Notes under the pieces: generated by a model
The model's input: the letters and a program-made list of their open reading frames with translations, nothing else
The model's database searches: none
Told to the model about the DNA's origin: nothing
Program-made: the position numbers and the translations under genes
Assembly (NCBI GenBank): GCA_016190305.1
Contig: JACPQU010000156.1
Location: forward strand, 1-34,191
DNA: 34,191 nt
Direction: 5' to 3'
From: Bacillota bacterium
GTDB lineage: Bacteria > Bacillota > JACPQU01
Shown: one piece after another, positions 7,921-33,444 of the stretch
Layout of the letters: each line of letters starts with the position of its first letter
How positions within the stretch are numbered: position 1 is the first letter of the stretch

Positions 7921-8237
7921 TGCTCGGGGAAGATGCTTGGGGAGAACCGGTGAACGCACGGCGACGGAGCGAAGGCCTTCCCGGAGCGAGGGCTTCATCC
8001 AGAGCGACAGATCCCGCCGGGGCGAACGATTCCACTTTATTGACCCGCAGGGAAGGAATCATCCTCCGGCATACCGAAGAGTCCGCCGTGCTTTCACGGG
8101 CGCGCTTGTCGCTTCCAGTGACCAAACTCATGGGTCGCGGTGACTATAACCCTTTGTCTGCGGGACCGGGAAAATTACGATAGAGATCGGCCGGGACTTT
8201 AACCCAAATCCCAGTCACCGTGCCAGGAGGACATTCC

Positions 8238-8693
8238 GTGAGTCCTATTTCGAGATATTTCATCAAGGCAGGGCTGATCTATCTCGTGCTGGGATCCGGC
8301 ATCGGGTTGTTGATGGCCTTGGCTGCGGTACCAGTGGGCACCTTGCGCATCGTTCACGCCCACTTCAACCTTCTCGGATTTATGGCTTTCTTCATCTTCG
8401 GGGTGGCCTACCACATCCTCCCCCGGTTCCATGGCCGCCTTCTCTACAGCGAGAACATGGCCTGGGTTCATTTTTACCTGGCGAATTTCGGGCTGGTCGG
8501 AATGGCCCTTTCTTTTGTGATCAGGGACCCGCTCCTGACGGAGGGCCTCCTGGGAACTGCGGAAGCGGCGTCCGGGACGGCGGCGGTCACCCTCCCGCTG
8601 GCGGGCGTTGTCAGCGTGGCCGGAATCCTGCTCTTCGTCCTCAACATCTGGAAGAGTATGGCCCCGCTCAAGCCGACCCCGCCTCAGGGATAA
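8238..8693 (+). CDS. Small membrane protein resembling an N-terminal part of haem-copper oxidase subunit I
   Basis: GTG start with AGGAGG 7 nt upstream; four hydrophobic segments; RIVHAHFNLLGFMAFFIFGVAYHILPRF His-rich helix pair. ORF track begins at 8220. Confidence 0.7.
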   Translation: MSPISRYFIKAGLIYLVLGSGIGLLMALAAVPVGTLRIVHAHFNLLGFMAFFIFGVAYHILPRFHGRLLYSENMAWVHFYLANFGLVGMALSFVIRDPLLTEGLLGTAEAASGTAAVTLPLAGVVSVAGILLFVLNIWKSMAPLKPTPPQG

Positions 8694-11785: not shown

Positions 11786-13702
11786 TCAAGATATTACTTC
11801 AATTTTACTTTCCAACGGAAAACATACTTTAAATGTTGACCCCTCTCTCCCTGTTTCTATCTCTATTCTGGCATGATTGTCTTCAGCAATCCTGTGGCAA
11901 ACCGCCAGGCCGAGGCCGGTTCCTTTCTCCTTGGTCGAAAAGAACGGAGTGCCTATTTTATTGAGTACTTCCGGAGCGATCCCTTCCCCCTGGTCCTTGA
12001 CGGCCAGCACTACGGAATCGCCGTCCAGACAGGTTTTAATGGTTAACACACCCTTGTCGGCCATCGCTTCCAACCCGTTCCGGACGAGATTGAGTATGAC
12101 CTGCCTGATCTGCTTCTCATCCAGGAGCAGTTCGGGGACCTCCTCCAGAATGGCGTTGACCACGATCCCGTTCTTGCCGGCATCAGCCTTGATCATAGGC
12201 AACAGAGCGGACACGATATCGTTAAGGAAATGTTTTTTCTTGTATATGGCCGTATTCTTGGACAGAGAGAGAAATTCGGAGATAATGAGATTAATGCGGT
12301 CGATCTCATCGAGCATCGTGGTTAAGTGATCTTGATAAGAAGCTAGTTCGGTTTTCTTCTTGAGCAACTCGAGATAGCCCTTAACCACGGTTATCGGATT
12401 TCTGACCTCGTGGGCGATCCCTGCCGCGATCGCCCCGATCAGGTTAAGGCGTTCCAGGCGCGCCAATTCCTGTTCGAAGTGTTTCTTCTCGGATATATCT
12501 TTCAAGGTCGTCAGCCAGCAGTCGGCATCGTCAAGCTTGATCACCGATAATGAGGCCATGGTTCTGATGGTCTTCCCCGACTTGGCGCGGATATCCAATT
12601 CTTGATTGACTATGCCGCCCTGTTCCGGCAACTGTTCTCCCAAGCGTTGCAGGCCCACCCAGTCATCCTGCGACAATATGCCCAATCCAACAGGTGAGTG
12701 GCCGATAACTTCATCGGGAGCAAAGCCGAGGTTGTCAAGATAAGACTGGTTTACTTCTACGATCTTGTTGTCCGACATTTTTAAAATAGCGATCATGTCA
12801 GGACTATTGTTAAATATCTTGTAGAAGCGATCCTCCGATTGGTGCAGATCCACCTCGCGCAGCTTATCGGCGAGAGCGCGGTAACGTCCCTCGCTCTCCT
12901 TGAGCGCCTGCCCCATCCGCTCCCGCTGGGTGATATCGCGAAATACCAGGACTAACCCGATGATGTTTTCCTGATCATTTCTAATGGGTGCTGCCGAGTG
13001 CTCTATCAGGATCTCCATTCCGTCCCGCGTTACTAAAATCGAATTATTGACCGGACCTACGGCAACACCCTCGCGCAGAATACTGGTCACCGGGTTCTCG
13101 GTATGCTGGCGTGTCTCACTGTCGATGATATTATACACCTCAGTTAACTTGCTGCCCGAGATCTCTTCCAGCTTCCAGCCCAGCAAGTCCTCCGCAACCG
13201 GGTTCATGAAATTGATCAGGCCTTGCCCGTCGGTAGCAATCACAGCTTCCAAGATGCTCCTGAGCGTTATTTCAAACCACTTCTTGTTCTCTTGTAATTC
13301 TCTTTCCATATTATGCTTGTAGAGAGCTATCTCGATAGCTATGTACAGTTCCCTATCTTCAAAGGGTTTGAGTATATATCCATATGGTTCCGCGATCTTG
13401 GCGCGCTGCAAGGTGTCTTCATCCGAATAGGCGGTAAGGAAGACAATCGGAATATCGAAATGTTTATAGATATATTCGGCAGCTATTATTCCGCCCATTT
13501 CTCCATAGAGCATGATATCCATCAAAACCAGGTCAGGCTGTGTCTCCTGTGCATTTTTCACAGCTTCTTCCCCGGTAGATGCGATAGCAGGAACGAGATA
13601 TCCCAGCCTGACCAGCTTCCGTCGCAAGTCAAGGGCTACAACACCTTCGTCTTCAACAATCAATATCTTCTTCAGTTGTTTAATGCCGTTTGCGTTGGGC
13701 AT
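11786..13702 (-). CDS. REC-PAS-PAS-HisKA-HATPase hybrid sensor kinase
   Basis: ILIVEDEGVVALDLRRKL...DLVLMDIML (receiver), two PAS segments, GIAHEVRNPITVVKGYLELL (H box), QVILNLVRNGLEAM (N box), KEKGTGLGLAVCHRI (G box); AAGGAG SD. Confidence 0.93.
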   Translation of the reverse strand: MPNANGIKQLKKILIVEDEGVVALDLRRKLVRLGYLVPAIASTGEEAVKNAQETQPDLVLMDIMLYGEMGGIIAAEYIYKHFDIPIVFLTAYSDEDTLQRAKIAEPYGYILKPFEDRELYIAIEIALYKHNMERELQENKKWFEITLRSILEAVIATDGQGLINFMNPVAEDLLGWKLEEISGSKLTEVYNIIDSETRQHTENPVTSILREGVAVGPVNNSILVTRDGMEILIEHSAAPIRNDQENIIGLVLVFRDITQRERMGQALKESEGRYRALADKLREVDLHQSEDRFYKIFNNSPDMIAILKMSDNKIVEVNQSYLDNLGFAPDEVIGHSPVGLGILSQDDWVGLQRLGEQLPEQGGIVNQELDIRAKSGKTIRTMASLSVIKLDDADCWLTTLKDISEKKHFEQELARLERLNLIGAIAAGIAHEVRNPITVVKGYLELLKKKTELASYQDHLTTMLDEIDRINLIISEFLSLSKNTAIYKKKHFLNDIVSALLPMIKADAGKNGIVVNAILEEVPELLLDEKQIRQVILNLVRNGLEAMADKGVLTIKTCLDGDSVVLAVKDQGEGIAPEVLNKIGTPFFSTKEKGTGLGLAVCHRIAEDNHARIEIETGREGSTFKVCFPLESKIEVIS

Positions 13703-13715
13703 GGTGCCATTCTCC

Positions 13716-14759
13716 TTATTTCAAAGCCTCAAACATAATCATCACATTGGTTCCGCCGCATGAATCCAGATGAATAGTGCCTCTAAGCTGCTGAACCAGC
13801 ACGTTCACCAATGTCAATCCCAGTGATTCACAATTCTGTATATTGAATCCTTCTGGCATGCCGATACCATTGTCGCTGACTGTCACTTGAATTTTATTGC
13901 CGGGACTTTTTTTCATGGCAAGCCGGATTTCAGCCTTGCCGTCCACACACTTTGCCGAATCAGGAAAGGCGTGTTTGAGTGAATTGGAGATAAGTTCGTT
14001 GATGATCAGAGCACAGGGAATTACCGTATCGACACTGAGCGTAAAATCTTCAACACTTATGCTTGGTCTGATGCCCTTCTTGGTCGCCCCGTAAGATTGG
14101 AACAGGTTGGAAACCAGACCCGGAATGTAATCCCCGAGTTCAATCCATGCCAGGGATTGAGATTGGTATAGCTTTTGATGAATAAGCGCCATCGAATAAA
14201 TGCGGTCTTTACTCTCCTTGAACAATTCAATGGCCTGCTCGTCTTTTATGTAACCCATTTGCAGATTGAGCATGCTGTGGATGATCTGTAGGTTATTCTT
14301 AACGCGGTGGTGTATTTCTCTTAGAAGCGCATCCTTTTCTCGCAGTGAATCTTTGACCCGATCCTCAGCATGCCGGAGTTCCTGGTTGACGGCCTCGGTT
14401 TTTTCTCTCTCCATGTCAAAGTCATCGAGGATGTTCAACATTGCCCGCTGCGCATCTTCCAGCCGGGCCTTCTCCCCGGCAAAATCTTCCAGAATATTGA
14501 GCGCGGCGCGATATGTTACTTCAAGACGCTCTTTCTCATCGGCGAAGTCCTCAAGGATATTTAGCATCGCTTTTAGATAGTCCTCGACGTTAATCGTTGA
14601 TGTCACTTGTAAAGCTTCAGACATCAAGACTATCTCTTTCTCCCGGCTATCATCAACATTGGTAATCGCTGATTCTAGATGCAATGCTTCAGGCACCAGG
14701 CCCCCCCCTATCCAGCAATGAGCAATGAGTCCTGCTTTGAGATTCTCTAACCTCTCCAC
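13716..14759 (-). CDS. HisKA_2-type sensor histidine kinase with N-terminal 21-aa coiled-coil repeats
   Basis: [51 protein letters not shown]. Start uncertain: GTG at 14759 or ATG at 14624. Confidence 0.92.
14385..14573. repeat. Three tandem 63-bp (21-aa) coiled-coil repeats inside the HisKA_2 kinase gene
   Basis: [21 protein letters not shown] / [21 protein letters not shown] / [21 protein letters not shown]. Confidence 0.85.
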
Positions 14760-14761
14760 CT

Positions 14762-17700
14762 CTAAGCTTCATCCTGTGCCACCGCTACCTCCTGTGCCAC
14801 CGCTACCTCCTTGAGCGAGGTATCCATTGGCGCACTTGCCTTCCGTATTAAAGAATTTTCCCTCTGCAATTCTTCGATCTCCTTCTTCAGTTCGATCATC
14901 TTCAACTCCCGCCCGACGGTCAACTTCTGAAACCGTTCCAGTTCGGCCTGGCGCTCGAGCTCGCGTGCCCGCTGCTCCTCACGGGCTCTCTGCTCGGCGA
15001 TCTTCGCCTCGGCCTCCTTCTGGGTGGTGATGTCACGAGCGGCGGCAAAGACGCCGAGAATATTTTCCTGAGCGTCCCGGTACACCGAGGCGTTGTAGAG
15101 AACATCAGTGAACCGGTCGTCCTTGTGTCTGATCGTCAGCGAATAGTTCATGACGTACCCTTTGGAAAAAACCTGCTCGTATCCTTTGCGCGCCTTATCC
15201 GGCTCCGTGAAGTAATCAGAGAAGTCCGTACCGATCAGCCTGTCCCGGGGGATGCCGGTCACGTCCACGGTCGCCTCGTTGACGTCGGTGATCTTCCCCT
15301 CGGCGCTGATGGTGACGAAGGGGTCGAGACTGGCCTCAATCAGGCTGCGGGCGTAGAGAGACGCCTGGCGAAGTTGTTCCTCCGCCTGTTTCTTTTCCGA
15401 AATGTCAGTGCTCATCAGCAGGTAGCCGAGCGGGTTGCCTGCGGCGTCGTTGCGGCGGGTGACCACCACGCTGGCGATAAAGCGGGAGCCATTCTTACGG
15501 ACGCGCACGAACTCCCCTTCCGCCAGGCCCTCCTCGAAGGCAATCTTCAGCATCTGGTCCACCGCCCCCGAGGCGAGGTCCTCGGGCGCATGGAGGATGC
15601 TCGAACTCATGCCGATGATCTCCTCCGCCTCATAGCCGTAGTTGCGTACCGCCCCCTCGTTCCAGGAGAGGATCCGGTAGTTGAGGTCCTTGCCGATGAT
15701 GGAATACTTGGTCGAACTCTCCAAAATGTTGTCCAGCAAGTTTTTCGTCTCGGCCAGTTCCCGCATCACCTTGTTCGATTCAGTGACGTCCCGGGCGGCA
15801 GCAAATACGCCCAGCACGTTGCCGCGCACATCCTTGTAGACCGAGGCGTTGTAGAGAACATCGGTCAGGTTGGCATCCCGGTTCCGGATCACCAAGGGGT
15901 AGTCGGTAACGAAGCCCTTCTCGAACACCTTCAGGTAGCCTTCCCGCGCTTTGTCCGGCTCCGTGAAGTAGTCCGAGAAGTCCGTCCCGATCAACCGGTC
16001 CCGGGGTACGCCCGTCACCTTCACGGTGGCCTCGTTGACGTCGGTGATCTTCCCTTCCGGGCTGATGGTGACCAGGGGGTCGAGATTGACCTCGACCAGG
16101 CTGCGGGCGTACTGGGAAGTCTGCTGCTGAGCCGTAACGTCACGGGCGGCGGCGAAGACACCAATCACGTTGCCGCGCACATCCTTGTAGACCGAGGCGT
16201 TGTAAAGGACGTCGGTCAGGTTGCCGTCCCGGTTCCGGATCACCAGGGGGTAGTCGGTGACGAAGCCTTTATCGAACACCTGCTGGTAACCCTCCCGGGC
16301 CTTGTCCGGCTCCGTGAAGTAGTCCGAAAAGTCCGTCCCGATCAGCTTGTCCCGGGGGATGCCTGTCACCTTCACGGTGGCCTCGTTGACGTCGGTGATC
16401 TTCCCCTCCGGGCTGATGGTGACCAGGGGGTCAAGGCTGGCCTCAATCAGGCTGCGGGCATACTGGGACGTCTGTTGCTGAACCGTGACGTCCCGGGCGG
16501 CGGCAAACACACCTGCCACGTTGCCGCGCATATCCTTGTAGACCGAAGCGTTATACAAAACATCCACCAGGTTGCCGTCCCAGTTGCGGATCACCAGGGG
16601 GTAGTCGGTGACGAAGCCCTTCTCGAACACCTGCTGGTAGCCTTCCCGCGCCTTGTCCGGCTCCGTGAAGTAGTCCGAGAAGTCAGTCCCGATCAGCTTG
16701 TCCCGGAGGATGCCTGTCACCTTCACGGTGGCCTCGTTAACGTCGGTGATCTTCCCTTCCGGGCTGATGGTGACGAAGGGGTCGAGGCTGGCCTCGATCA
16801 GGCTGCGGGAATAGAGCGACGCCGCCCGGAGCTGCTCCTCCGCCCGCATGCGCTCCAGGAGATCCTCCCGCACCAGCCGGGAGTTCTCCAGAGAGATGGC
16901 CGCCTGCGAGGTCAGCAGTTCCGTCATCTGGGTCTTCCCTGACGTGAACACCCCGTCCGACAGCCGGTTTTCCAGGTACAGGATGCCGATCATCTTCGAT
17001 TGCTTGATCACCGGGAGGCAGAGGACGGAGCAGAGCGTCAACTCCTGGACCTCCGGTTTGTCCTTGAACATCCCTTCCTGGCAGGCGTTGTCGAGGATCA
17101 CCCGCTCCCCCGTCCGGTACACATAGCGGACGATCGCCTTGCAGATGTCGGCGGCGTCTTCCAGCTTTTTGTTGGAAGTCTTGACCACCTCTTTTTCGGT
17201 GATGTGGCTTTCCGCCCGGATAAACAGGTTGCCCTCCTCGGCGATGAGTAAATAGCCGTGCTGCGCCCCGGAACTCTCGATCACCACGTTCATGATCTTT
17301 TTCAGCAGGGCGTCCTGCTCCATCTCGGCCGAGATGGCCAGGGACGATTTCATCAAGTAGCTGATGTCCAGGTTGGGCAAGGTGTAGGAGGCGGAATCCA
17401 CCTCGAACTGCGAGCGCAGTGACTTCTCCGTCTCCCCGGACAGGGTGTAGGCGACCCCCTCCATCTCCCTCTGCGGGGAATGGGTTTTGTCCCTGTCGAA
17501 ATACTGGGGATAGCGCTCGATCAGGTTGATCTCCTTCCGTTTGGCGCCGCATTGCTTGTAGAGGTGCACCGCCTCGATGAAGTAGATCCGCTCGGAGCAC
17601 TGGCTCTCGTGCAGGAGCATCTCACCAAGACACTCGTGGAGGTACCCTTCCAGAAATGTATACTTTTGTTCGTGGGCACTGTTGATGGCATCCAGATAGA

Positions 17701-20700
17701 GGTTCCGGGCCTCCTTGAAAGAACCGGTGACCCGCTCCAGCTCGGCGTACAGGAAGGCGAGGTAGGGCTTCAGGAGGGGCCCCAGCGCCGCCCACTGCTC
17801 GACCTTGGTGATGATCGGCAGGATATCCGCCAGCAACTCCTCCTGGTTGGCGAACCCGATACCTCTTTCATACATTTTCAGGGCGTTCAACACCAGGAAG
17901 ACGTGCCACTGCCGCTTCAGTACGTTGTCCGTCAGGCCCGACAGGTAGCGCCGCACCCCGTTCAAGAAGACTTGCGCCTGCTCGTACTCCCCGAAGTAGT
18001 AGTGCGTCAGCCCCATGTGCACGCAATAGCTGCCCGCCGAGGCGATGTGATTGTCCCGCTCCCACTGCCTCAGCTTCTCCTCCATGGAGATGGGGGCGTA
18101 GTCCTTCTTCATCGGGGCGATCCAGCCTGCCTGCATCGCCTCGGCCAGGCCGACCGAGAAGGAGAGGTGGTACCGGTGGGAGAACTGCAGGCACTCTTTG
18201 GCGTAGTCTTCGATCAGGCACAGGTTCGCTCCCTGCACCTGCAGGTTCCACATCAGGGGGCCATAGGAGAGGCCGGCGTTATACAGGTCGCCGCAGGTCT
18301 TCCCGCACTGGATCGACCGCTGGCAGTAGTCCACAATCTCCCACGGGCTTTTGCGCGAGTGCATGTTGCACCAGACAATCCCATTCATGCCCCGGGTGGC
18401 CCCGAATGTGTTCGGGTACTTGGCGGACAGGTCGCGCGCCAGGTCCTCGTACTTGAAGGCCTGGGCGAACTCCCCCTGCTCCCCGAGCTGCAGCCCCATG
18501 ATGCTGAAGGAATAGATCACCGACTCGTCCATGCCGCCCGCTAGGCAGTGCCGGGTCGACTGCGCCGCCGACAGGTAAAGCTGCGGCACCATTCCGGACA
18601 TGTACAGGTCGGGGATCAGCTCGCTGTAAAAGGCTAGTTCGATCTTGCTCCGGCGGTCGGTGGTGAATGGCATGTTCAGGATCGTCCCCCAGACGTCCTT
18701 CTCCTGGGTGTCGATCTCCGCCATCAGCTCCCGCAGCCTGCGGTCGGCCTCCTCGGGGCTGTCCGGGATGGCCTTGCCGAAATAGGCCAGGCCGCGGTTG
18801 GCCGTCTCGATCGCCTTGATAAAGTTGCCGATGCTGGACAAGGAGGTAGTCTGCTCCGCCAGGCACTCCGCCTTGTCCAGATCGGTCTTGGCATGGTCGA
18901 GCAGCCTGGTGAGCAGCCGCTCGGAATTCTCGTAATTACCGCACATCAACTCGGTCTTGGCAGCCTTTTGAAAAATCCTGAAGGTGCGTTCGTAGTGTTC
19001 CTCCTCCCAGCAGTTCGCCGGCAGCAATTCCCGGCTAAGGTCGAAATACTCGTTGGCCGCTGACGTGGCCAGGGAATCCAGGGCCTTGTTGCCGGCGTGG
19101 TAGTTGAGGTCGGACAGCAGGTACGCCGTCTGGTTATCCAGGTCGCCCTCCCGCCCCAGGTTGAGGTGAGACACGATGGCGAACAGGTCCTCGTTGCTTT
19201 CGATCTCCTGGACGCTGTCGGCCACCGTGCCCAGCAGGTGGTTCCCGATCTGCCAGTGGATCTGGCGCCGCCTCTCCGCCGAGATATTGGACAGCGTCGC
19301 CTCCTGGACCTTGTCGTGGATGAACTGCAACCGGCCACCCTTGTTCTCCATCAGCAGCCCCTGTCCGAGAGCCGGTTTCAGGACCTCGAAGGTTTCCATG
19401 AGGGTCATCCCGTTGATCAGGGCGATGTCAGCGGGCGAGAAGGTGTTGCCCATGCAGGCGCAGTACTCCAGCAGGGTGATCAGGTTCAGTGGCAGTTTCT
19501 GGATCTTGGAGTTGAACAGGGCGACCACGGTGTTCGGCATGTCGGACTTGCGGATCTTGTCGATGTCCCATCGCCACTGCCGTTTATCATCGAAGTACAG
19601 CAGATCCTCGTTGTAGAGATAGGACAGGCTCTCGCTGACGAACAGGGGGTTGCCATCGCTTAGCATGCTGATGAAATCCGACAGAGCCTTAGTCTGCGCC
19701 AGGGAAAAGTCCAGGATGTAAGAGACCATCTCGTGGCAGTATTGTGGCTTCAGGGGCCCCAGTTGGATTTCCTCCAGCGGCTGGCCGCACTCCTTAGCGT
19801 TCCGGATCAGCCTGGTCAGGGGGTGGCTGGAGTCCACCTCGTTATCGCGGTACGCCCCCAGGAAGAAGAGATAGGGGTGGTCCTGGTAGTTGGCGAAGAT
19901 ATTGGCCAGGAAGTCAAAGGAGGCGGCATCGCACCACTGCAGGTCGTCGATGAACAGGGTCAGGGGGTTCTCCTTGCTGGCCAGGCAGGTCAGGAACCGG
20001 TCGAAGGTATCGTGGAACCGGTTCAGCGATTCCACCGGGGGCAGGGGTTTGACCTCGGGCTGCGGGCCGATCAGCAGATCCAGCTCCGGGATCTCCTCTG
20101 TCAGCACCCTCCCGTTCTGCCCGATGGCGCCCAGGATCCTCTTCTTCCAGAACACCATCCGCTCGTCGCTCTCGGTCAGGAACGTCCGCATCAGGTTCCG
20201 GAGCGCCTGGATCAGGGAACTGTAAGGAATGTTCTTCTGGTAGACGTCGAACTTTCCCGACGTGAAATAACCCTTGTGCCTGACGATTGGTTTTTGCAGG
20301 TCCTGGATCAGGCGGGTCTTCCCGATCCCGGACAGCCCTGAGATGAATAGCGATTGAAACGCTCCCGCCGCCGCCTTCTCGTATTCTTCGAGGATAATCT
20401 CGGCCTCTTCTTCACGCCCGACCATCTTGGAGACGAAGTTGACTCGGTGCGTATAAACGCTGCTCTCCAGTGGGAATTCGCGGATGATGCCGGCGGCCAG
20501 ATACTCGTCCCGGCAGCGCACCAGGTCGGCCAGCAGCCCGCTGGCGTTCTGGTAGCGCTTCTCGGGCGCCTTGAGCATCAGCCTGGAGATGATCTTGCTA
20601 AGGATTACGGGAATCTCCGGGTTCAACTCATGGACCTCCGGCGCCTCCTCCGCCAGGTGAGAGTGGATCAACTCCAGGGGATCGTCGGAGGAGAACGGCA

Positions 20701-21319
20701 GCGAATTGGTCAGCATCTCGTAAAAGACGACCCCGAGTGAGTAGAGGTCGGAGGTGAAGGCCACGATATGGTTGATGCGCCCGGTTTGTTCGGGGGAGGT
20801 ATAGGCCAGGGTGTCCTTGACAAAGGAGCGCTCGAAGATGAAGTGGCTGACGTCCCGCACGTCGACGGCGCTGATGAAGTCCGTCAGCCGGATATCCAGC
20901 GTGTCCGAGTTGACCAGGATGTTGTGCGGCTTGATGCCGCCGTGGATGATGCCCGCCTCGTGGATCTTGTCCAGGGCCTCGGCCAGTTGGCAGGCGATGG
21001 TGAAAAAATCTTTCAGGGAAAGAGGATGCGTCTCCCGCAGGTCGTCGAGCGCCATTCCGTCGAAAAAGTCCTGGCTGACAAAGCAGATGTCATCCTTGAC
21101 GTTGAACGCCGTGGGCGTGATCACGAAGGGATTCTTGAGCACCCGCAGGTGCTCGATCCGCTGGCTGAACTGGGCGATCTTATAGTTCGACAAAAAGAAG
21201 GCTTTCAAGACCTTCAACACCAGCAGCCGCTGCGGGTCTTTCTTGTGGTATGCCTTGTAGATCACGGCCTCCTTGCTTTCAGCGATCTTTTCGACAATTG
21301 CGTAATTCGGGATGATCAT
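14762..21319 (-). CDS. 2185-aa multidomain signalling protein: Ser/Thr (pseudo)kinase-AAA ATPase-TPR-like-GAF-five PAS-coiled coil
   Basis: Kinase-like [13 protein letters not shown]...LTDFISAVD; Walker A GLSGIGKT, Walker [45 protein letters not shown]; repeated PAS blocks; AAGGAGAAG SD upstream. Confidence 0.94.
15755..16807. repeat. Three near-identical tandem 351-bp repeats, each encoding a 117-aa PAS block; fourth diverged copy at ~15010-15349
   Basis: The caggctgcg/RSLIEA anchor recurs at 16799, 16448 and 16097 (351-bp spacing), and at 15341 after an unrelated PAS. Confidence 0.93.
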
Positions 21320-28121: not shown

Positions 28122-29297
28122 TCAGGGCTCGACCACAATCGTGCCGTGCATACCGGCTTCGTAGTGGCCCGGGATCCGGCAAGCCAGTTCGTACGTGCCC
28201 GCTTGCGTGGGGATCAGGTACAGATCCACCTGCTCTCCCTCGAAAACCTCGATCTCATTGAAGGTCGGACCTTTGACCTCGCTCATTATGTCCTGGGCTT
28301 TGCGGACCGCCGCGGTGCGGAAGAACTCGGCGGCGTCGGCCTCGTGTTTGACCGTGCCCTTGTTGATCAGTTGCAGCTTATACGGGACGCCGACCTTGAG
28401 GGGCACGTCCTGGGGCTTGAAGTACATTTCGCCCACTTCGATATCCACCGTCTGCAAGCTCTTCCAATCAGCCGCCTGCACCCGGGCTTCCGCATCCACC
28501 ACGTTTGTCACCGTGGAGACCTTGCCGAGCTCGATCCGGGGCGAACTGGGCGCGGCGCCGGTCACGGTGATCGTCCCGAACATGCCGGCTTCCTTATGCC
28601 CCGGGATCTCGCAGACCAGTTCGTAGGTCCCCGGGATCAGCGGCACAAAGTAGAGGTCCGTCCGTTCACCGGCGAAAACCTCGATCTCCGTGGCGTAGGG
28701 CAGCTTGAATTCGCCCTGGTCGTCCTGCACCTTCCGCAGGGCGATGGAACGGTAGAACTGTCCGGCCGTGAACTCGTGCTTCACCGCGCCGATGTTGTGG
28801 ATTTCGAGCTTGTAAGGCTTTCCCGCTTCGAAGGTAAGGTTCTTGGGCGTGAAGGCCATCTCGCTCAGATCCACGCGCGCCGTCTCCATCTGTTTCCAGT
28901 CGGCGGCGGCCACGAAGTCAGCGGCGTTGGCCACGTATTCGTCATCGGCCACACCGCTCACGGCAGCCGGGAAGGTCACATCGGAGAGGTCAGCCCCCTT
29001 CGGCCCGACTACCACGGTCTGGGTGTCCGCATTCCACCGCACCTGCACATCCAGGGCCTCGGCGATGAAGCGGATCGGCACCATGGTGCGGCCGTTGATG
29101 ATGACCGGAGCGGCATCCAGATCCATCGGCTGGTCATCCACCGCGGCCTTCTGGCTGCCGAGCTTGAGGACGACGATCTTCTGGCCGGACGGCGCCGTTT
29201 CGGCGCTCACCATACCGATAGCAATCAGGGACAAGCCCAGGATTAAAATGCAGATCGGAATCAGCGCACTTCTCTTTAATCTCATCTTTGAACTCAT
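28122..29297 (-). CDS. Secreted protein: copper-amine-oxidase-N-like domain plus two tandem blue-copper (cupredoxin) domains
   Basis: Signal peptide; VIINGRTMVPIRFIAEALDVQVRWNADTQTVVV; KHEF...CEIPGHKEAGM and KHEA...CRIPGHYEAGM (two H/C-x4-H-x4-M ligand sets). Confidence 0.88.
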   Translation of the reverse strand: MSSKMRLKRSALIPICILILGLSLIAIGMVSAETAPSGQKIVVLKLGSQKAAVDDQPMDLDAAPVIINGRTMVPIRFIAEALDVQVRWNADTQTVVVGPKGADLSDVTFPAAVSGVADDEYVANAADFVAAADWKQMETARVDLSEMAFTPKNLTFEAGKPYKLEIHNIGAVKHEFTAGQFYRSIALRKVQDDQGEFKLPYATEIEVFAGERTDLYFVPLIPGTYELVCEIPGHKEAGMFGTITVTGAAPSSPRIELGKVSTVTNVVDAEARVQAADWKSLQTVDIEVGEMYFKPQDVPLKVGVPYKLQLINKGTVKHEADAAEFFRTAAVRKAQDIMSEVKGPTFNEIEVFEGEQVDLYLIPTQAGTYELACRIPGHYEAGMHGTIVVEP

Positions 29298-29371: not shown

Positions 29372-31246
29372 TTACTTGACAATCAAGGTGCCGACCATGT
29401 CCGGATGGCCCCTGCGTCCGCCGCCGCCCTGAAGTTCCCCGATCCCGCACCAGACGGTGCAGACGATGGGGAACTCGCCGGTTTTGTCTGCCGTGAACTC
29501 AACCGCCACCTCCTTTCCGGAGGGAACCTCCTGCTCGATTCCATAAGCCTCGATACCGATGCCGTGTTTGTCCAAGTCTTGCCCGGCAGGCTTGACCAGG
29601 AGGCCCGGAGATAGCCTCCCGGAGTCAGTGTTCACCAGCAGCCGGACCCGGTCACCCTTCTTGACCTCCACCTTGCCCGGATCCCAGCCGAAATGATAAG
29701 CAGTCAATGGGATCTCCTTGAGCGCCGGCTCGGCGGGCTTGGCCGTTGTTGCAGCCGGCGTCCTGCTCGCCAGGACTTCGGTCCGCAATTCCTGCACCCG
29801 CTGGTCGACCTGGACAATGGTGGCCTTGAGCTGGGTCAGGCTCTCCACGTTCTCCTGCAGCCCGGCCACCAGTGCGGCCAGCCGGTCCTGCTTGGCCGAA
29901 AGAGGCACGATCTCTCTCTCCAGGGACTGGAGGCCCTGAGCGACGACGGCCAGGTCACCGCGGATCTGACCTTCCGCCGCGATCCGCTGCTCGTGCTCCG
30001 CGTTGGCGCGGAAGCCGTCGGCAATCCATGTAAGGGCAAGCAACAGGGCCACAACGCCGACGGCCACTTTCCAGACGGTACCGTTCATATCTCCCTCCTC
30101 CCTCTCTTCAATGAAGTCGTCGGCGGCCCAGACGGAGGCGCCTCCGTGGGTTCCGCCCATAGCGTGGGCTTCCCGCGCGGCCGCACCAGCCAACCGTTGC
30201 GTGGTTGCGGCCGCCGCTGCGAGACCCGCCCTTGCCCACCGCGTGCGGACACCGGAGATTACCGAGTACGAGAATACGGTCCAGACGAAGGCCAGGATGG
30301 CTGCGAGTGTCCAATTGCCGAGGAATGGGATGTACAGGTCGCGGGGCTCGAACTCATACCGGTTGACCGCTGACTGGGGGACCTCCACGGTGGAGATGGC
30401 CTCGCCGCCCCGGTAGGCCGCGTTGCCTTCGAACACGGCCCTGACTTCGATATCCCCCTCGCGTCGAGGTGTGTAGGCAAGCCGGGCGATCCCGTTCGCA
30501 TCGGTAAGAACCGCCCCCAGCTTGACCCCTTCTGCTCCAAGGAAGGATCCTGCCCTGTAGAAGAGCACGCGGGCGCCCTTGAGCGGCTCCCCGGTTTCGG
30601 CCTGCAGAGCGGCTGAAATCTCGATACCGGCCTTCCCGGCCGCGCCGACCACCTGGATCCGGGAAGGCTGGGCCTTGGCGGCTGCGGAGTCCACTGTAAG
30701 AAAGCCGTTTTGCAGCAGCTTGTGACCCTCGCACTGCCGGACACACTTCATCGGGATCTTTCCGGTTTCAGTCGCCGTGAAGGACACCGTGCTCTCCTGG
30801 TTTCCCTCGTTCAGAACTCCGCTTTTCAGGTCCAGGGTCGGGAAGTAGACCTGGTGGGGATTGTCGTGTCCGAGGTCCCCGTCCCCGTAAACGAAGGTGA
30901 TCTCCACCCGCTCGCCGGCCCGCGCCTCGAGCGCGCCGCCGTCGAGCACCTTGAACCCTTCGTGGCCCACCTGGACCCGGATCCGGGTTCCGGATCCCGA
31001 GGCGGCACCCGTCAGGACCCCCGTCCCGGCCCCCGCCGCCGTCTCTGTCCCCCGGCCGGCCTCGTGGGACGCGGCTTCCGCGATCCAGCCCGCTCCGAAG
31101 AGAGTAACGAGGGCGGCCGTCGAAAGGGCTAAAAGAATCCTGGCCCGGTGCGCGACCCAACGCCTGCCCCAGCCTTTGCCCAAACTGTTGCCCCTACCCT
31201 TGCCCCAACGCCAGCCCCACCTCAGATCCAAACGCATCCGCTTCAT
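29372..31246 (-). CDS. Membrane-anchored double CuA/COX-II-like cupredoxin protein (possible in-frame fusion of two genes; second part may start at 30088)
   Basis: ATG at 31244-31246 overlaps the NrfD stop (ATGA). Domain 1 GHDNPHQVYF...CVRQCEGHKLLQNG, TM at FLGNWTLAAILAFVWTVFSYSVISG; internal MNGTVWKVAVGVVALLLALTWIADG TM; domain 2 KHGIGIEAYGIEQEV...FTADKTGEFPIVCTVWCGIGELQGGGGRRGHPDMVGTLIVK. The ORF track's 31540 start is upstream read-through. Confidence 0.82.
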   Translation of the reverse strand: MKRMRLDLRWGWRWGKGRGNSLGKGWGRRWVAHRARILLALSTAALVTLFGAGWIAEAASHEAGRGTETAAGAGTGVLTGAASGSGTRIRVQVGHEGFKVLDGGALEARAGERVEITFVYGDGDLGHDNPHQVYFPTLDLKSGVLNEGNQESTVSFTATETGKIPMKCVRQCEGHKLLQNGFLTVDSAAAKAQPSRIQVVGAAGKAGIEISAALQAETGEPLKGARVLFYRAGSFLGAEGVKLGAVLTDANGIARLAYTPRREGDIEVRAVFEGNAAYRGGEAISTVEVPQSAVNRYEFEPRDLYIPFLGNWTLAAILAFVWTVFSYSVISGVRTRWARAGLAAAAATTQRLAGAAAREAHAMGGTHGGASVWAADDFIEEREEGDMNGTVWKVAVGVVALLLALTWIADGFRANAEHEQRIAAEGQIRGDLAVVAQGLQSLEREIVPLSAKQDRLAALVAGLQENVESLTQLKATIVQVDQRVQELRTEVLASRTPAATTAKPAEPALKEIPLTAYHFGWDPGKVEVKKGDRVRLLVNTDSGRLSPGLLVKPAGQDLDKHGIGIEAYGIEQEVPSGKEVAVEFTADKTGEFPIVCTVWCGIGELQGGGGRRGHPDMVGTLIVK

Positions 31247-32631
31247 CTCCCCGCACCTCCCCCGGGCGCGTAACCGGGTACGGGACCGGCAGGCCGCGGC
31301 GCCGAGCGTTTCCGTTCCGCCAGGTCCCTGGCATCCGATTCGATCTCCAGCTCCTCGGCCATCTCCCACATGGGGATCAGGGGAACGGACTTGCCCAGGG
31401 TTCCCACGATCAGGGCGAAGCCGGCGAAGGTGGCGGCGACGATGGAGATCTCCACCCAGGTCGGGCTGTAGCTCCCCCAGGGGGTGGGTTGCAGCGGCAC
31501 CGCCATGGAGGGGATGACGATGAAGTAGCGCTTGATCCACATGAAGATGTTGATCAGTATCGAGGCAATGCCGATCCCCAGCATGTTCCTGGTCCGGGGC
31601 AGGGACAGGAGCAACAGCGGGATGGCCATGCCGCCGATCCAGTAGCTCCAGAAGTAACCGGAGTACGGGCCGTGGAAGAGGGCTTGCAGGAGCCCCAGTT
31701 CATGCTCGGACATCTTGTAGACGGCGGTGATGTACTCCGCGGAGGTGAAGTAGAAGTAGACCAGTCCCGCCGCCAGGAGGATGTTCCCCAGCCAGCGGAA
31801 GTGGTTCGGGGTGATGTACTTCTGGAAGCGGAAGGTCTTCCGGAAGATCCACATCTCGGTGACCACGGCGGCGATCCCCGAGTAGATGGCCCCGATTACG
31901 AAATAGGGGCCGAAGATGGTGCTGTGCCACCCGGCGCGCCACGTCATCGCGAAGATGAAGGAGACGACGGTATGGACGCTGATCATCACGGCGATGATCA
32001 TCATGCACATGGCCCGGATCCCCTTGTTCAGCAGCCGCCACTGCTCAGGAGTCCCCTGCCACCCAAGGGAGAAGGTGTGGAAGAACCAGCGGCGCAGCGG
32101 GCCCACCTTGTCGCTGAGCCGGTCCCGGCAGGTGGCCAGGTCCGGGATGAGCGGCAGGTACAGGTAGATCAAGGTGCCGGTGAAGTAAGATGTCACCGAG
32201 AGGAGGTCCCAGAGGATCGGCGAGTTGAGCTGGCCATGGTAGATGAGGTTCAGAATCCGGTCCGGCCGGCCCAGGTCGACCACCGGCATGGCGCCGCCGA
32301 CCAGGAGGGCGCCGACCGTCATGAACTCGGCCATCCGGACGACCGGGGTGCGCCAGCCGACACCGGTCAGGCGGAGCACGGCGGAGATGAAGGTCCCCGC
32401 GTGGCTGATCCCGATCCAGAAAACGAAGTTGGTGATGTAGAATCCCCAGGAGACGTGGTTCCGCATCCCGGTGACCTCCAGGCCGTTCCGGAGCTGGACG
32501 CTCCAGGCGTAAAGGGCCCAGAGGATGACGGCGACCGCCGCCAGGACGAAGAGAATGAAGGTCCTGCTTCGTTCCGTCACCGGGCGCAGCACGGCGGCCT
32601 CCATTTCCCGCACTTCAGCTTCCGCGTTCAA
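31243..32631 (-). CDS. NrfD/PsrC-family membrane subunit, ActC-like
   Basis: About 10 hydrophobic segments; HVSWGFYITNFVFWIGISHAGTFISAVLRLTGVGWRTPVVRMAEFMTVGALLVGGAMPVVDLGRPDR. Confidence 0.88.
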   Translation of the reverse strand: MNAEAEVREMEAAVLRPVTERSRTFILFVLAAVAVILWALYAWSVQLRNGLEVTGMRNHVSWGFYITNFVFWIGISHAGTFISAVLRLTGVGWRTPVVRMAEFMTVGALLVGGAMPVVDLGRPDRILNLIYHGQLNSPILWDLLSVTSYFTGTLIYLYLPLIPDLATCRDRLSDKVGPLRRWFFHTFSLGWQGTPEQWRLLNKGIRAMCMMIIAVMISVHTVVSFIFAMTWRAGWHSTIFGPYFVIGAIYSGIAAVVTEMWIFRKTFRFQKYITPNHFRWLGNILLAAGLVYFYFTSAEYITAVYKMSEHELGLLQALFHGPYSGYFWSYWIGGMAIPLLLLSLPRTRNMLGIGIASILINIFMWIKRYFIVIPSMAVPLQPTPWGSYSPTWVEISIVAATFAGFALIVGTLGKSVPLIPMWEMAEELEIESDARDLAERKRSAPRPAGPVPGYAPGGGAGR

Positions 32632-32637
32632 CCATGC

Positions 32638-33444
32638 TCACCTCCCGTAGTCCTCACCGTGACCGGGTAGGTAGAAGACCCGCGGCCGGGTCCCCAGCTC
32701 TTCCTTGTCCCGGTAGGCGTGACGCTCGTGTAAGAAAGCGGACAATCGCACCGCCTCGGTGCCGTTGGTGGCCACGTCCTCCGTCAGGTCTCCCATCCAG
32801 AGGGCCTGCATCGGACAGCCCTCCACGCAGGCGGGGAGCTTGCCCTGCCGCAGCCGGTGACCGCAGAACATGCACTTTTCAGCGGTGCCGATGCGATGGG
32901 GAACCGGGTATTCGGGCGAGTAGCTGGCGAAGGCGGCGCCGGGCGGATTCTCCGGTTTCCCCCAGTTGAAGTAGCGGGCCTGGAAGGGGCAGGCGGCGAG
33001 GCAGAAGCGGCAGCCGATGCACCGCTCGTGGTCGATGAGCACCAGGCCGTCGGGGTTGTAATAGGTGGCCTCCACCGGGCAGACGTGCTCGCAGGGAGCC
33101 TTCTCGCAGTGCTGGCAGGGCCGGGGCTTGAAGTAGGTGCCTCCGCCCTCGTCGGGGGCCTCGTAGACCTCCATCCAGTTCTGCTCTTCCGGAACGAAGT
33201 GTTCCTTCTTGCAGGCCGCCTTGCACCGGGGGGGCTTGTCGATGGTGGTGCAGCCCTCGCACTTCTTGCGATCCACCACCATCACCCACTGGCGGCCGGT
33301 GCTCTGCAGGGTTTGCTCGCGGGCGGTGCCCTTGGCGTCCCCGGCCTGGCCGGCCGCTGCCAGGAACGGAATCACACCGGAGGCAACTCCTGCTCCGCCG
33401 GCGCCGATCCATCGCAGCAACTGGCGCCTGGTAACATCTGGCAA
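32638..33444 (-). CDS. TAT-exported 4Fe-4S ferredoxin subunit (CISM/Act-type FeS protein)
   Basis: N-terminal TRRQLLRWIGAGGAGVASG; CEGCTTIDKPPRCKAACKKEH, CQHCEKAPCEHVCP, CIGCRFCLAACPF, CMFCGHRLRQGKLPACVEGCP. Confidence 0.92.
   Translation of the reverse strand: MPDVTRRQLLRWIGAGGAGVASGVIPFLAAAGQAGDAKGTAREQTLQSTGRQWVMVVDRKKCEGCTTIDKPPRCKAACKKEHFVPEEQNWMEVYEAPDEGGGTYFKPRPCQHCEKAPCEHVCPVEATYYNPDGLVLIDHERCIGCRFCLAACPFQARYFNWGKPENPPGAAFASYSPEYPVPHRIGTAEKCMFCGHRLRQGKLPACVEGCPMQALWMGDLTEDVATNGTEAVRLSAFLHERHAYRDKEELGTRPRVFYLPGHGEDYGR

Follow-up and report, generated by a model that had tools for sequence, protein, structure and literature searches.

The window analysed here, a stretch of 34,191 nucleotides from a draft MAG (204 contigs, 79% complete), encodes a protein of the CuA type, P0001, whose copper ligand loop is longer than it should be. 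The question raised by this locus is whether such a domain is a genuine variant of a CuA site or an error, and in which electron transfer system it might work. A first-pass annotation had described it as a COX-II CuA domain in which a segment of about ten residues lengthens the stretch from the second Cys to the His while all ligands are kept. The translation of positions 29372-30088 (-) ends in ...GEFPIVCTVWCGIGELQGGGGRRGHPDMVGTLIVK*, and its N-terminus carries the hydrophobic segment VWKVAVGVVALLLALTWIA, followed by a coiled-coil-like stretch and the cupredoxin (Table 1). The ligand loop reads C210-TVW-C214-GIG-ELQGGGGRRG-H228-PD-M231, in which 13 residues separate the second Cys from the His as compared with the canonical 3, exactly ten extra residues that are in frame. 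The spacing is hence C-x3-C-x13-H-x2-M and not C-x3-C-x3-H-x2-M, and the extension proposed in the annotation is exact.

Table 1. Positions in the window of P0001, its copper ligands and loop insertions, and the neighboring genes.
Feature	Position	Strand	Basis or remark
Tat-exported 4Fe-4S ferredoxin-like subunit (DsrO/PsrB type)	32638..33444	(-)	Profile matches; 49% identical to the L051 counterpart
NrfD-family membrane subunit (quinone module)	31243..32631	(-)	PF03916, 110 bits; 45% identical to the L051 NrfD
Third subunit: signal/TM, cupredoxin, Big_1-like Ig domain, C-terminal TM	30089..31246	(-)	ATG at 31246; Ig and TM parts 28% identical to the subunit of relatives
CVRQCEGH, CuA-like irregular motif C-x3-C-x2-H-x2-L of the third subunit cupredoxin	30722..30745	(-)	CuA profile, 24.6 bits; alignment A2
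P0001, 238 aa: N-terminal transmembrane anchor, coiled coil, C-terminal CuA cupredoxin	29372..30088	(-)	
Insertion 1, DSGRLSPGLLVKPAG, residues 154-168, just before ligand His174	29585..29629	(-)	Census distance, low pLDDT; new in this analysis
His174, upstream CuA ligand	29567..29569	(-)	Column invariant in alignment
Cys210-TVW-Cys214, bridging Cu ligands	29447..29461	(-)	Both Cys columns invariant; codons 29461-29459 (C210) and 29449-29447 (C214)
Insertion 2, ELQGGGGRRG, residues 218-227, between Cys214 and His228	29408..29437	(-)	Alignment and census; noted in the first-pass annotation
His228-PD-Met231, downstream CuA ligands	29396..29407	(-)	His column invariant, Met nearly so; codons 29407-29405 (H228) and 29398-29396 (M231)
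Exported protein: copper amine oxidase N-like part and two type-1 (blue copper) cupredoxin domains	28122..29297	(-)	Downstream of P0001

CuA domains were collected with the pattern C-x3-C-(2, 3 or 13 residues)-H from the genome itself, 399 genomes of the phylum and one matching contig from outside it, so that the census represents mostly one phylum, and 64 domains were aligned. The side-chain ligands of P0001, H174 (in the context DKHGIGIEAYG), C210, C214, H228 and M231, constitute the full His/Cys/Cys/His/Met set and fall in invariant or nearly invariant columns. In known CuA sites, one residue between the bridging Cys contributes a backbone carbonyl, and the equivalents in P0001 are Val211-Trp213. 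From the second Cys to the His there were 3 residues in each of the other CuA domains (63/63) and 13 in P0001, a difference not attributable to chance. Fold and ligands thus make P0001 a CuA domain, but with this spacing it is a variant and not a canonical member. No other long Cys-His spacing was detected among the same matches when the pattern was left unrestricted (1 to 20 residues). The alignment brought up a second insertion that the first-pass annotation had missed, approximately 16 extra residues within TDSGRLSPGLLVKPAGQDLDKH, in the loop that runs up to the first His ligand. Counted from the Gly conserved in the KGD turn, this His lies 29 residues away in P0001, and 13 (53 domains), 17 (7 NosZ-type domains) or 23 (three domains) residues away elsewhere. 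The copper ligands are thus flanked by both insertions. With gappy columns removed, P0001 shares 51% identity outside the loops with L012, an Omnitrophota CuA protein with normal loops, and at most 45% with all other census domains. Because of the identity to L012, the core is conserved, and by sequence comparison the departure of P0001 from its CuA relatives is confined to the loops.

An insertion found in a single copy, in a MAG, and in a GC-rich low-complexity GGC run could be an assembly or sequencing artefact, and no second genome with it was found in the 399 phylum genomes or the contig scan. However, ELQGGGGRRG is encoded by 30 nt that are in frame and have no duplicated flanks, the third-position GC of this stretch (0.83) is similar to that of the rest of the gene, and a second independent in-frame insertion adjoins the same copper site; we consider an artefact extremely unlikely. 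No direct repeats of at least 10 nt were found in or beside the insertion, so an origin by simple duplication does not look likely either. Close relatives with the insertions were not detected in the phylum genomes, plasmids or viral contigs, a comparison set in which the class of the host was represented by this one genome, and scanning contigs outside the phylum genomes gave a single distant match, which has a canonical loop. Neither the census nor the genome, plasmid and viral scans produced a CuA subfamily sharing the ten residues, and a natural CuA loop insertion was not found in the openly available literature searched. Judged from these sequence comparisons, P0001 is a real variant of a known domain, without a second example so far, and present as one copy in one MAG.

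To which family and fold the domain belongs was analyzed with profiles and structure prediction. The best family model for P0001 was that of the L-NosZ nitrous oxide reductase (NF052460, 62.7 bits), and the match spans only positions 341-467 of the 480 in the profile, the C-terminal part of the model. We infer that this model must have a ligand loop of canonical length because only 13 profile positions follow the residue two after the second Cys. P0001 was rejected as a piece of L-NosZ: it has no propeller/CuZ part, and it begins with a TM anchor and a coiled coil. AlphaFold2 run on alignment A1 gave a model with a mean pLDDT of 81 and a pTM of 0.73, in which the core strands are mostly above 90 and both inserted loops are low, with values below 50 over most of ELQGGGGRRG. 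These inserted segments are probably flexible, or become ordered only on binding a partner. When this model was compared with the PDB using Foldseek, Thermus CuA domains came first (E about 1e-9) and NosZ and nitrosocyanin after them, as expected of a cupredoxin fold. P0001 grouped with the CuA domains of NosZ and NosZ-neighbor proteins, with weak support (0.52). The assignment of the domain to the CuA fold is therefore backed by sequence, family models and predicted structure, and the two insertions appear in an otherwise confident model as low-confidence loops.

The label COX-II did not stand. The CoxB model gave P0001 14.2 bits (cut-off 147.7), well under the L-NosZ score. A place for P0001 in a heme-copper oxidase, as a CuA subunit II whose loop is unusual, would agree with its closest solved structure, Thermus ba3 subunit II, and with a short COX1-like membrane protein of 157 aa encoded in the same window (8220-8693, (+)); moreover, the MAG is fragmented and incomplete, so an oxidase may be missing from it. 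This short protein is nevertheless the only COX1 match in the 79%-complete genome, which has no full-length COX1 match, and it is encoded 20 kb from P0001, which shares its operon with FeS and NrfD subunits. The role of COX subunit II was rejected, and we regard it as very unlikely.

The long loop raises another possibility, namely that His228 and Met231 are shifted so that no binuclear CuA forms and P0001 holds one copper (type-1 or red-copper-like) or functions in copper delivery. This would be in line with the low model confidence in the ligand loop and with the presence of nitrosocyanin among the sequence and structure matches. It would also fit the behavior of Thermus CuA chimeras, in which the scaffold carrying foreign type-1 ligand loops turns into a mononuclear T1 site and the reorganisation energy rises with loop length (PMC7480511). 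In P0001, however, the two Cys, the two His, the Met and the strand after it (VGTLIVK) are all retained, and the degenerate-looking CuA-like domains of the census (L081, L133 and L118) drop ligands whereas P0001 drops none, and a mononuclear site seems unlikely to us. The engineered chimeras are only an analogy for what the extra loop might do. The earlier suggestion that a change in the ligand loop might affect the redox potential or the docking of a partner is plausible.

The genes around P0001 point to a different kind of complex. The third subunit of the FeS-NrfD cluster (Table 1) has an N-terminal domain predicted to be a cupredoxin (mean pLDDT 86.6) that matches the cupredoxins of Cu nitrite reductase and NosZ. 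Together with P0001 it forms a single open frame of 624 codons and a final stop (31246 to 29372), with no stop codon between the two near 30088, and the internal ATG of P0001 is directly preceded by a strong SD-like purine run, GGAGGAGGGAGAT. Because the frame is unbroken and this run lies before the ATG, P0001 may be made as part of a fusion, from its internal start, or in both ways, and in either arrangement the third-subunit cupredoxin and the CuA domain are predicted to be located outside. The same gene order is found in FeS-NrfD-CxxCH/Ig complexes of the Bacillota phylum (L048, L050, L051, L052 and L054), and comparison with L051 shows homologous subunits in order (identities in Table 1). 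In these relatives, the third subunit consists of a CxxCH motif, an Ig-like domain and a C-terminal TM; the window protein shares the Ig and TM C-terminus but has a cupredoxin with C-x3-C-x2-H where the relatives carry CxxCH, and the relatives, unlike the window, have no CuA domain after this subunit. Pfam detected no cytochrome domain in the CxxCH subunit, and its assignment as haem c follows from the CxxCH motif alone. The genome itself contains a paralogous FeS-NrfD cluster (L055, on C140) with a small Ig-TM subunit that has neither CxxCH nor a cupredoxin. A complex of NrfD with cupredoxins was not found in the openly available literature searched.

Altogether, we consider it moderately likely that P0001 is the membrane-anchored CuA electron carrier of a copper-based FeS-NrfD respiratory complex, and not COX II. 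Its core CuA site would most likely be normal, with two bridging Cys, two His and the Met, and the extended loops, located ahead of the first His ligand and between Cys214 and His228, would loop out over the copper edge. A cupredoxin would have taken the place of the CxxCH (haem c-type) domain of the relatives, and the CuA domain would have been appended to it without a break in the frame. Electrons might then pass from quinol through NrfD/FeS to the first cupredoxin, to CuA and to a copper acceptor, for which NosZ and the blue copper protein of the neighboring gene are candidates. The extra loops may provide a lineage-specific docking surface and alter the solvent exposure of the copper. Electron flow in NrfD-type complexes can occur in either direction.

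The genome encodes a NosZ-like protein that scores 604.8 bits against TIGR04244, just below the cut-off of 625; this protein and small canonical CuA proteins are located on C147/C148, the NosZ contig thus being different from that of P0001. Cytochrome c assembly proteins were also found, so the host probably has some c-type cytochromes and is not free of them. A more far-reaching proposal, which we rate as quite improbable, is a quinol-to-copper complex in which the haem c-type carrier was swapped for two copper sites, both unusual in geometry, on one polypeptide (C-x3-C-x2-H-x2-L and C-x3-C-x13-H-x2-M), with a two-loop lid on the second site that sets partner choice, and which feeds N2O reductase without cytochrome c. 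Elsewhere in this genome, an FTR1-permease-like membrane protein carries a fused C-terminal CuA domain (CMVPCGSSHDGM; L111, 3201-4538 on C134), and a locus on C150 (L132, 5347-5841) has the repeated translations VHPHVRGDY/PPPRAWG and is CRISPR-array-like. The window also encodes a giant Ser/Thr kinase-AAA-GAF-multi-PAS sensor protein of 2185 aa (14762-21319, (-)), the gene of which is adjoined by two histidine kinase genes (11786-14759).

The Cys-His spacing of the CuA ligands was uniform in all other domains examined, and the studies of loop length that were consulted deal with engineered chimeras. A CuA domain that naturally has ten additional residues between two ligands and sixteen before another would be a test case for the tolerance of the site, and for the influence of loops on redox behavior and docking. 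Of greater interest is the setting, where copper may have replaced haem in a FeS-NrfD complex: it hints at a respiratory membrane complex that gave up a haem c-type carrier and took on copper carriers, an exchange open to testing.

Several known systems resemble parts of this locus. The FeS and NrfD subunits are similar to DsrO (179 bits) and DsrP (116 bits) of DsrMKJOP and Qrc-type complexes, but these scores are under the curated cut-offs (200 for DsrO and 350 for DsrP) and the cluster is without other Dsr subunits. The CuA domain of subunit II of the Thermus ba3 cytochrome c oxidase (2CUA, 1EHK), the best structural match, has the same cupredoxin fold and ligand set; P0001 differs from it by its two insertions, by the absence of an oxidase catalytic subunit nearby, and by being in frame with the Ig/cupredoxin subunit of a FeS-NrfD complex. 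In the CuA domain of NosZ (clade III L-NosZ, NF052460), the loop ahead of the first His likewise exceeds that of COX II (17 versus 13 residues), whereas P0001 has 29 residues in this loop, a Cys-His spacing of 13, and neither beta-propeller nor CuZ. The closest sequence found is the Omnitrophota CuA protein L012 (CP070807.1), which in contrast to P0001 combines the canonical C-x3-C-x3-H-x2-M and a short first loop with another N-terminus, devoid of the coiled coil, and another gene neighborhood.
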